DNA of 64,000 nt from an uncultured Actinomycetes bacterium (GTDB lineage: Bacteria; Actinomycetota; CADDZG01; WHSQ01): NCBI GenBank assembly GCA_937863385.1, contig CALMBW010000018.1, positions 1-64,000 on the forward strand. The letters run 5' to 3'. Positions 55,994 to 61,168 of this stretch are shown here, piece by piece. The position numbers and the translations under genes were made by a program. Positions within the stretch are counted from its first letter, which is position 1, and every line of letters begins with the position of its first letter. Under the pieces are notes generated by a model. The model worked only from the letters and a program-made list of their open reading frames with translations. It was not told the DNA's origin and searched no databases.

Positions 55994-56033
55994 GACCTTG
56001 GAACCTCTACAGCGAGCACGAGCAAAACCAAGC
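55994..56033 (-). other. 3' strand of the 23S processing stem
   Basis: This segment is complementary to 61126-61168: GACCTTGGAA with TTCCAAGGTC, AGCGAGCACGAGCA with TGCTCGTGCTCGCT, and ACCAAGC with GCTTGGT. The stem closes the 23S precursor and is a natural RNase III substrate, defining the mature ends. Confidence 0.88.
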
Positions 56034-56319
56034 CCTCGGCCTATTAGTACCGGTCGCCTAAATACATTGCTGCACTTACAGCTCCGGCCTATCAACCTTG
56101 TGGTCTAGCAAGGGGCCTTACCGGGTTAACCCCGTGGGAAACCTCATCTTGAAGTCGGCTTCGCACTTAGATGCTTTCAGCGCTTATCCGATCCGCACGT
56201 AGCTAAGCAGCCTGCCGTTGGCACGACAACTGCCACACTAGAGGTGCGTCCGTCCCGGTCCTCTCGTACTAGGGACAGCTCTTCTCAAGTTTCCTACGCC
56301 CGCAGAGGATAGGGACCGA

Positions 56320-57043
56320 CACATCTGTTACTCCCGATCCGCATCGATCGAGGGCCAAGTCGTTTCTGTTCCGCTTGGCTCCCCATGTCGCCATGGGGGT
56401 CGGACCATATCTTCACGAATCTGGTGGATCCGTGTCTGGCGTATGGCCTCTGAGGATTCTGGTTGACCAATCTTCTCTTCTATAGCGGCCACCTCCGTTC
56501 ATCTGAGTAGCCTCTTGAAGCAAGCGGTGGAATCCGTCCTCTTCGAGGTGGTCACCCCGCTCCATTGCTCTCACGATCGCTGCGAAAGTCTCAAACTCGC
56601 GCTGCTTCTCGCTGAGAAGGGGGTGCTGTTCAAAGAAGGGAATCACTCTCTCGAGAAGATCCTTTCGCTTCCTTGCTACGTAAACCAGAGACTTGTCTCT
56701 CCCCCCTGCTCGTCCGTTCGCCTGGATGCGTCCGCATCCAAGTTGCCGTAGGAGAAGGCAAAGGGTCGAAGATCTCTCCGGATTCTGACTTACGTGGAAC
56801 TCTGGTACGAGTTGCCACTTCAATCTCGTAGAAGGGTTGCGTTGGATCGCCACGTGAAAGCTGCCTTCCCCGTCGACGTATCCCGCTAGATAATCATCCA
56901 GTCTTTCCTGCTGATCGTCCGCACCGGTCAGATTTTCACTGCTCATGTGCTCAGTCTGACAACGGCCTGAGACATAAACGAGTACTGCCGGATGCTCGGA
57001 TGTTCCAGCATTTAGCCAGATTTATAGACAGCGCGGTCATCTC
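56320..57043 (-). mobile_element. Group I intron in 23S after position 2604, with LAGLIDADG ORF
   Basis: The 724-base intron interrupts exon sequence GACAGU|UCGGUC. Its 5' exon pairs with GCUGUC inside the intron, giving P1 with a U.G pair at the splice site; the last base is G. The core has the P7 strands GGCCAU and AUGGUCC, a P9 hairpin with a GCGA loop and further 3' hairpins. An endonuclease gene fills most of the interior. It is a close sibling of the intron at 58375-59070. Confidence 0.93.
56413..56946 (-). CDS. LAGLIDADG homing endonuclease in 23S intron (position 2604)
   Basis: A 177-residue single-motif LAGLIDADG protein, likely a homodimer. The motif is LAGYVDGEGSFHVAI at about 18-32, and the C-terminal region has ERVIPFFEQHPLLSEKQREF, typical of this group. 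The reading frame is inside the intron and its end runs through the ribozyme core (the 5' strand of P7 is coding; the stop lies just before the P7 3' strand). Its first residues, MSSEN and GADDQQER, are nearly the same as those of the endonuclease at 58397, so the two are recent relatives. Confidence 0.92.
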   Translation of the reverse strand: MSSENLTGADDQQERLDDYLAGYVDGEGSFHVAIQRNPSTRLKWQLVPEFHVSQNPERSSTLCLLLRQLGCGRIQANGRAGGRDKSLVYVARKRKDLLERVIPFFEQHPLLSEKQREFETFAAIVRAMERGDHLEEDGFHRLLQEATQMNGGGRYRREDWSTRILRGHTPDTDPPDS

Positions 57044-57147
57044 ACTGTCTCACGACGTTCTAAACCCAGCTCGCGTGCCGCTTTAATGGGCGAACAGCCC
57101 AACCCTTGGGACCTGCTCCGGCCCCAGGATGCGACGAGCCGACATCG

Positions 57148-58354: not shown

Positions 58355-58374
58355 ACCTTAGGACGGTTATAGTT
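58355..58374 (-). other. 20-nt 23S exon between two group I introns
   Basis: The bases read AACTATAACCGTCCTAAGGT on the minus strand and correspond to 23S positions 1912-1931, which form the loop and 3' strand of helix 69 and the start of helix 71. Introns border it on both sides, so both must be excised for a working intersubunit bridge B2a. Confidence 0.9.
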
Positions 58375-59070
58375 CAGCACCGTCATCCCCGTATCGCTAC
58401 GGGGTCTGGACCATCTCTTCATCCACAAGCTTCAATTGTGGAGCTCTGCGTATGGCCTCTGAGGATTCCAAGAACCGAGATGGCTTCCTGTGATTCATGG
58501 TCTGCGCGATCTTTGCGATCCGAGTAAGACCCTCCACCGTTAGGTGAAGCCTCATCCTCATCATCTGTACAACCGTCGCAAACTTCTGAAACTCAGTTGC
58601 TTTTGCGGTCCGTAGTGGATTCGCCTCAAAGAACGGAATGATCACCGAATGTAGGTACGCCCGATTCCGGACGCTGTACCTATAGAGATGCTCACGATGA
58701 TTGTCGTAGCGGCGATTGACATACACATCACCGCAACCGAAGAACTGCTTCATCTCGTGGAGTACATCCACGCTCCGCGCTCCCTGAACGACCACAAAGT
58801 CCGGTTGAACCTGCCACCCGAGCTTGTAGGTCGTGTTCTTGAAGATCGGAACACTGAAGCAGCCTTCGCCGTCGACGAAGCCGACGATCCACTGCTCGAT
58901 ACTTGGTCTTTCCTGCTGATTGTCCGCACCGGGCGGATTTTCACTGCTCATGTCTTCAACCTAAAGAGAAGGTGTGACATGAACGAGTACCGCCGGATAC
59001 TCGGAGTTTCCAGCAAATAGCAGAGTTGTTGTCTAGACGATCACTCGTCTAGGGCGGCAACTATTACCTT
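58375..59070 (-). mobile_element. Group I intron in 23S after position 1911, with LAGLIDADG ORF
   Basis: A 696-base intron in GGCGGCGGU|AACUAUAACC. P1 is formed by exon GGCGGU with intron GCCGCC (U.G at the splice site) and the last base is G. The core has P7 (GGCCAU/AUGGUCC), P8 (CCACAA/TTGTGG) and a P9 stem CCCCGTA/TACGGGG with a GCGA loop. It encodes an endonuclease related to that of the 2604 intron. Confidence 0.93.
58397..58951 (-). CDS. LAGLIDADG homing endonuclease in 23S intron (position 1911)
   Basis: A 184-residue single-motif homing endonuclease. The motif is IVGFVDGEGCFSVPI (about 21-35), followed by YRYSVRNRAYLHSVIIPFF and a basic C-terminus. The ORF starts MSSENPPGADNQQER and ends in MVQTP, with the reading frame passing through the core of the intron including both P7 strands. 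It would be expected to cut an intron-less 23S gene near position 1911. Only ~20 bp downstream lies the site of the 1931 intron, so that intron may alter its target. Confidence 0.92.
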   Translation of the reverse strand: MSSENPPGADNQQERPSIEQWIVGFVDGEGCFSVPIFKNTTYKLGWQVQPDFVVVQGARSVDVLHEMKQFFGCGDVYVNRRYDNHREHLYRYSVRNRAYLHSVIIPFFEANPLRTAKATEFQKFATVVQMMRMRLHLTVEGLTRIAKIAQTMNHRKPSRFLESSEAIRRAPQLKLVDEEMVQTP

Positions 59071-61125
59071 ACCGCCGCCGTTTACCGGGGCTTAGGTTCA
59101 GAGCTTCGCCTTACGGCTAACCCTTCCCCGTAACCTTCCGGCACCGGGCAGGCGTCAGTGCGTATACGGCGCCTTACGGCTTAGCACGCACCTGTGTTTT
59201 TAGTAAACAGTCGCTAGGGCCTGGTTTCTGCGACCATAGTCAGCTTCGGGAGCAAGTCCCTACACCAACCATGGCGCCGCTTATCCCGAAGTTACGCGGC
59301 CAATTTGCCGAGTTCCTTAACCAGAGTTCACTCGATCGCCTCGGTATGCTCTACCTGTCCACCTGTGTCGGTTTGGGGTACGGGCACCACAGAAACTGGC
59401 TAGAGGCTTTTCTCGGGAGCATGGGCTCATCAGCTTCGGCTCAATCGCCTCGGCATCGTGTCTCAGGATTAACGATCCAACGGATTTGCCTATCGGATCT
59501 CCCTACGCACTTACCCCACGTCGACCAACGCGTGGGTCTGACTACCCTCCTCCGTCACCCCATTGCTACCCGCCACGTCTGGGTCGGTAGGCCCGAAGGC
59601 TTTCCTTAGCAAAACGTCTTGGGTTGGGCGCGTCTGTGGTGGTACTGGAATATCAACCAGTTGTCCATCGCCTACGCATCTCTGCCTCGGCTTAGGTCCC
59701 GACTTACCCTGGGCGGATTAACCTTCCCCAGGAACCCTTGGACATACGGCGTCGAAGTTTCTCGCTTCGATTTCGCTACTCATGCCGGCATTCGCACTTG
59801 TGCGCGCTCCACGGTTCCTTACAGTTCCGCTTCACAGCAGGCACAACGCTCCCCTACCGATCACACATAAATGTGCAATCCCGCAGCTTCGGTACTTCAC
59901 TTAGCCCCGCTACATTATCGGCGCGAAATCACTCGACCAGTGAGCTGTTACGCACTCTTTAAAGGGTGGCTGCTTCTAAGCCAACCTCCTGGCTGTCTGA
60001 GCAACTTCACATCCTTTTCCACTTAGTGAAGATTTAGGGACCTTAGCTGGCGATCTGGGCTGTTTCCCTCTCGACTACGGAGCTTATCCCCCGCAGTCTC
60101 ACTGCCGTGCTCTGGAGTATGGGCATTCGGAGTTTGGCTGAGTTCGGTAACCTTGTTGGGCCCCTAGCCCATCCAGTGCTCTACCACCCATACTGAACGC
60201 ACGACGCTGCACCAAAATGCATTTCGGGGAGAACCAGCTATCACCGGGTTTGATTGGCCTTTCACCCCTATCCACAGGTCATCCCCCAGGTTTTCAACCC
60301 TGGTGGGTTCGGCCCTCCACGGAGTCTTACCTCCGCTTCAGCCTGCCCATGGATAGATCACCCGGCTTCGGGTCTAGGACATGCGACTGAACGCCTTATT
60401 AGGACTCGCTTTCGCTACGGCTTCGGCTCCACGCCTTAACCTCGCCACACATCGCTAACTCGCCGGCTCATTCTTCAAAAGGCACGCCGTCAGAGTGACA
60501 AGTCACTCCTTCGACTGTTTGTAAGCGCACGGTTTCAGGTGCTATTTCACTCCCCTCCCGGGGTACTTTTCACCTTTCCCTCACGGTACTGGTTCACTAT
60601 CGGTCGATAGGTAGTAGTTAGCCTTACGGGGTGGGCCCCGCAGATTCACACGGAATTTCTCGGGCTCCGTGTTACTTGGGAACACCATCGGGAGATCAGT
60701 CGGCTTTCGCCTACAGGGCTATTACCTTCTGTGGCCTAACTTTCCAAGAAGTTCGGCTAACCGCTGATTTTGTAACTCCCTGCTCGGTCTTGCACCCGAA
60801 CAGATGGGTCCCACAACACCCCCTACGCAACGCTGCAAGGCTTTGACACGTAGAAGGTTTGGGCTGATCCCGTTTCGCTCGCCGCTACTCAGGGACTCGT
60901 TATTTACTTTCTCTTCCTCGGGTTACTTAGATGTTTCAATTCACCCGGTTCCCTCCACAGGCCCTATGTATTCAGACCTGGGTACCAGCGCATGACCGCT
61001 GGTGGGTTTCCCCATTCGGACATCCTCGGATCAAAGGTTGTTTGGCACCTCCCCGAGGCTTTTCGCAGCCTACCGCGTCCTTCGTCGGCTCCTATCGCCA
61101 AGGCATCCACCGTACGCTCTTAGTA

Positions 61126-61168
61126 GCTTGGTATCGATGCTCGTGCTCGCTATGGAGTTTCCAAGGTC
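61126..61168 (-). other. 5' strand of the 23S processing stem
   Basis: Pairs with 55994-56033 in three perfect blocks of 10, 14 and 7 base pairs. Its presence without a 16S part upstream shows that 23S is processed from its own precursor. Confidence 0.88.

Follow-up and report, generated by a model that had tools for sequence, protein, structure and literature searches.

LAGLIDADG-encoding group I introns have been described in the LSU rRNA of Synechococcus sp. C9 and S. lividus C1 (Haugen 2007, PMC1995217), so that a cyanobacterial 23S gene with three group I introns has been known since 2007 (PMC1995217). In CPR bacteria, insertions were reported in 82% of the 23S genes, with up to 16 per gene, and 45% of the 23S insertions were classed as group I by Rfam (PMC11270868). 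Archaeal group I introns include types IB4 (LSU positions 1931 and 1923) and IA3 (LSU 2500 and 2593), and SSU position 1498 is also occupied (PMC6125680). A Thiomargarita 23S gene is also known to have three introns, for which no type was given.

The window analysed in this study is a 64,000-nucleotide stretch of the genome of an uncultured Actinomycetes bacterium, with a 23S rRNA gene on its minus strand (Table 1). To compare this strand to E. coli rrlB, we used a dynamic-programming alignment in which long insertions are permitted. As proposed in an earlier note on this DNA, the spliced alignment placed four interruptions, after E. coli U1911, U1931, U2500 and U2604, with conserved exons on either side of each, and the lengths measured for the three inner exons were those that had been claimed (20, 568 and 104 nt). 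The exon stretch 1932-2000 was 95% identical to E. coli, and the listed functional bases were all identical except for position 2063, where a one-base gap was placed by the aligner within a C run. Shorter expansions were present at two further places, E. coli 276 (84 nt) and 1402 (65 nt); they are separate from the four intron sites and were read as ordinary length variation. With a probability of about 85%, we consider the four interruptions to be self-splicing group I introns of two ribozyme families that would restore a normal 23S rRNA, with presumably homing endonucleases encoded at L1911 and L2604. Guanosine-initiated self-splicing would remove all four from the precursor, and the two single-motif LAGLIDADG endonucleases, presumably as homodimers, would cut intron-less 23S alleles, which would then receive a copy of the intron. 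Splicing in vivo, endonuclease activity and homing are all inferred from sequence.

Table 1. Features of the intron-bearing 23S rRNA locus in the window
Feature	Position	Strand	Basis
23S rRNA gene including four introns	56036..61133	-	RF02541 matches; spliced alignment to E. coli rrlB; one genomic place
Exon 1 (to E. coli U1911)	59071..61133	-	Spliced alignment
Intron 1, L1911, 696 nt, terminal G	58375..59070	-	Junctions; P3-P9 helices; P1
LAGLIDADG_1 homing endonuclease ORF (predicted), intron 1, 184 aa	58397..58951	-	Pfam PF00961 E 9.6e-24; PDB relatives
Exon 2, 20 nt (E. coli 1912-1931)	58355..58374	-	95% identity to E. coli
Intron 2, L1931, 335 nt, without ORF, terminal C, short P1	58020..58354	-	RF00028 51.4 bits; junction; P1
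Exon 3, 568 nt (E. coli 1932-2500)	57452..58019	-	Spliced alignment
Intron 3, L2500, 304 nt, without ORF, different core type	57148..57451	-	RF00028 36.7 bits
Exon 4, 104 nt (E. coli 2501-2604)	57044..57147	-	89% identity to E. coli
Intron 4, L2604, 724 nt, terminal G	56320..57043	-	RF00028 28.7 bits; junction; helices; P1
LAGLIDADG_1 homing endonuclease ORF (predicted), intron 4, 177 aa	56413..56946	-	Pfam PF00961 E 2.2e-17; PDB relatives
Exon 5 (from E. coli 2605)	56036..56319	-	Spliced alignment; Rfam
5S rRNA, downstream of 23S	55798..55914	-	RF00001 97.4 bits

The assignment of all four insertions to group I, as the earlier note had it, was supported by three Rfam matches, by a covarying core shared by the L1911 intron and by a U preceding every insertion. 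The covariance search suggested in that note gave matches for three introns and none for the fourth. At the RF00028 gathering score of 50 bits, the L1931 intron was the only one above threshold, the L2500 (E 5.6e-8 to 5e-7) and L2604 (E 1e-4) introns matched below it, and the L1911 intron was without a match in this search. The ORF-less L1911 intron of a genome of the same family (G006) scored 41.5 bits. The P7 3' strands that had been described were present, AUGGUCC in three introns and AUAGUCU in the L2500 intron. For introns 1 and 4, P7 was GGCCAU/AUGGUC, with a G.U pair beside the guanosine-site pair; many relatives have A-U at this place, and the G.U pair recurs in many introns whose ORF crosses P7.

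A common covarying P3-P9 core was found for the L1911, L1931 and L2604 introns, with a P3-P7-P8 core and guanosine-binding P7 whose helices were paired and covarying. For covariation, 113 introns of the sites L1911, L1917, L1923, L1931, L2604 and S1498 were aligned. In this alignment, P3 was paired in 99% of cells compared to 80% in shuffled alignments, with 160 double-change cells against 40, figures that are to be read as support and not as probabilities, as the helices were hand-drawn on the L1931 sequence and relatedness among the introns is not accounted for by the shuffles. Pairing of P5-P9 was also above that of the shuffles, and P4 was nearly invariant and hence uninformative on covariation. 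The P3 strands of the three introns of the window (CUCUGC/GCAGAG, GCUGGC/GCCAGC and UCUGGC/GCCAGA) differ, yet all are fully paired. For the L2500 intron, the catalytic core was recognised through the Rfam alignment only. A P1 helix with a U.G pair at the 5' splice site could be drawn for all four introns; it was strong for L1911 (9 bp) and L2604 (7 bp), fair for L2500, and weak for L1931 (approximately 3 bp, with a further 2 bp on the side of the intron).

Bacterial 23S commonly contains intervening sequences. Excision of the insertions by RNases with no religation, leaving a fragmented rRNA, would be concordant with the short intervening sequences that the CPR survey found at two sites (PMC11270868), but the insertions of the window combine group I cores with endonuclease genes and U-to-G junctions and are located in the catalytic centre, not in surface helices, and we regard this explanation as very improbable.

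The L1911, L2500 and L2604 introns have the canonical terminal G (omega-G). The L1931 intron ends in ...AACAGCUUC, followed by AGCG, and is without it. Exceptions to omega-G are known among group I introns, and its absence does not bar membership. Because of the terminal C and the short P1, the L1931 intron is the least certain of the four to splice, as judged from these features. It might be retained or incompletely removed while the other three are spliced, which would give an interrupted or fragmented but working 23S rRNA. This has a precedent at the same site in Simkania, going by a study title, 'An unspliced group I intron in 23S rRNA', cited and tabulated in PMC1995217. Such retention is nevertheless rather unlikely: the L1931 intron has an intact catalytic core, a normal P7 and the best Rfam score of the four, the same C-ending intron persists in a second genome (G003), and the title of a Coxiella study, as cited in PMC11270868, names a pair of self-splicing introns, one of them without omega-G. 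Removal of all four introns is the reading that we prefer.

Of 76 L1931 introns, 22 have a terminal base different from G, that of the window included, compared to 3 of 120 introns at other sites (Fisher p 8e-8). This p-value overstates the significance, as related introns are not independent, and the pattern came to light when the junctions were listed and was not a prior hypothesis. At least 11 changes of the omega base were counted on a quick core tree. This might indicate a relaxed 3' splice-site rule at L1931, with C, A or U replacing a G that would have been lost or regained repeatedly and would be dispensable in this exon context, a proposal that we hold as tentative and rather doubtful. 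Other accounts were rejected. No consistent P7 change was tied to the missing omega-G, as the guanosine-site pair was altered in just one of the 22 introns (L124). A junction shifted to after G1933 gives the same product and gains an omega-G, but loses the U.G pair at the 5' splice site. The bases A1932-G1933 are present after all 76 L1931 introns, each of which is followed by AGCG, and a junction that drops them would delete these bases.

The L1911, L1931 and L2604 introns belong to one ribozyme family and the L2500 intron to another. The cores of the first three had been described as near-identical, which was not borne out, as their mutual identity was 64-67%, below the 70-83% identity to introns at the same sites in other genomes. 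In the ribozyme tree, the L1911 intron grouped with that of locus L071 (100/98), the L1931 intron with that of G003 (100/91) and then with three further L1931 introns (100/98), and the L2604 intron with those of G002, G015 and L133 (99/97). Recent internal copying in the window genome was rejected, as each of the three related introns clusters with same-site introns elsewhere. Introns at all four sites were present in independently assembled genomes, with the L2500 site occupied in 18 other genomes or loci.

G002 and G015 are of one family with the window genome, and every family member with contigs covering part of the intron region has introns. The number per 23S gene in these members was four in the window, five in G003, three in G006, at least three in both G015 and G002, and at least one in G009. 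Seven introns were found in a genome of the same class (G021), with L2593 and L2604 counted separately because of an exon match inside the joint insertion, and five in a genome of another class of the phylum (G032). Exceptional rarity of such an intron load is not upheld: bacterial 23S genes with several introns have been published, and three to seven introns per gene are seen in relatives of the same family and class. Among named loci, genes with four or five introns, at sites that recur, were also found in several phyla; these loci were chosen for a similar endonuclease and are uninformative on frequency in bacteria generally. An exact match to the uninterrupted 1925-1962 stretch was found in 122 of 296 genomes of the phylum, with no such match among the 16 family members, although an absent match can also reflect a missing or diverged gene.

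Group I introns were also observed in 16S genes of relatives, at S1498 in four genomes (loci L036, L039, L045 and L061; G002, G003, G016 and G032) and at S788 in G002, G003 and G018 (L056). In sequence grouping, the S1498 cores fall together with 23S introns of site L1923, which suggests a possible movement of introns between 16S and 23S genes. The single 16S gene of the window genome (L034, G000:C21:124591-126118) is without an intron and lies on a different contig from the 23S-5S pair (55798-61133), and the argH gene is directly upstream of the 23S gene. Linkage of the rRNA genes is accordingly improbable. On the plus strand, two adjacent ORFs (53670-54599 and 54745-55734) have a similar layout and look like tandem paralogues: both have a hydrophobic segment at the N-terminus and a long low-complexity linker rich in Ser, Pro and Ala, and their C-terminal domains resemble each other.

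A 101-base probe from the 23S gene matched one place in the genome assembly. With one copy, the mature 23S rRNA should have to derive from the intron-bearing gene, although a second, divergent 23S gene may be present in unassembled sequence. The genome assembly is in 27 contigs and its kin are apparently metagenome-assembled, which could point to an artefact or a chimera as the source of the multi-intron gene. The window is part of a 335,579-base contig, however, and same-site introns occur in independently assembled relatives, one of them (G003) inside a 1-Mb contig, making an artefact extremely improbable.

Both predicted endonucleases are encoded by intact genes and have one LAGLIDADG_1 domain, well above the PF00961 cut-off, with the motifs VGFVDGEG and AGYVDGEG, and both are related to solved homing endonucleases (PDB). 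The dN/dS of the domain was 0.17-0.20 for the intron 1 ORF and 0.12 for the intron 4 ORF; these values, although rough as synonymous sites are near saturation, are consistent with purifying selection and the predicted endonuclease function. Compared to ORF-less introns, both ORFs overlap the ribozyme core at their ends, that of intron 1 at both ends, and an ORF running into the ribozyme core was also reported for a Synechococcus intron (PMC1995217). The L1931 and L2500 introns are without an ORF here, and their counterparts in other genomes have one. The endonuclease tree was grouped by site with the exception of L1911: the intron of the window has an L1911-type ribozyme and an endonuclease placed among those of L1931. 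A grouping of the three L1911 endonucleases together, named only after the first tree had been seen, was rejected (p-AU 0.0026). We infer that an endonuclease gene was probably exchanged between introns 20 nt apart with a common core sequence. Endonucleases of another LAGLIDADG type, with an LLGDG motif, were observed in three introns (L043, G015 L2500; L041, G021 L2262; L056, G018 S788) and differ from the LAGLIDADG_1 proteins of the window.

In the literature searched, mostly without subscription journals, neither a published L1911 intron nor an account of actinobacterial 23S intron loads was found; an L1911 ribozyme with an L1931-type endonuclease gene, and L1931 introns without omega-G at a frequency of 22/76, were likewise absent from it. 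The best documentation of heavy 23S intron loads is for CPR bacteria and some thermophiles; such loads now extend to a group of uncultured Actinomycetota, and rRNA surveys may overlook organisms with such loads. Site-matched introns with and without omega-G, together with apparently exchanged endonuclease genes, would aid tests of splice-site choice and homing.

The locus resembles that of Synechococcus (PMC1995217) in having multiple group I introns in one 23S gene, an L1931 intron and single-motif LAGLIDADG genes. The Synechococcus gene has three introns (L1917, L1931 and L2593), all with endonuclease genes, whereas that of the window has four (L1911, L1931, L2500 and L2604), with endonuclease genes in two. 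Multiple 23S insertions clustering near the peptidyl-transferase centre, and LAGLIDADG_1 at 1931 and 2604, are shared with the CPR insertions and the endonuclease I-ShaI (PMC11270868), but the phylum is another and L1911 is absent from the positions named in that text. The archaeal sites L1923, L1931, L2500, L2593 and S1498 are also used by the lineage of the window, a likeness by site, with introns that have archaeal hosts in PMC6125680. The Coxiella burnetii L1917/L1951 pair (Raghavan 2007), as far as it is cited in PMC11270868, is similar in its two introns with a short exon between them and one without omega-G, which sits at another site than the L1931 of the window. Multi-intron 23S genes are already a known kind, of which the gene described here is a well-supported new example.
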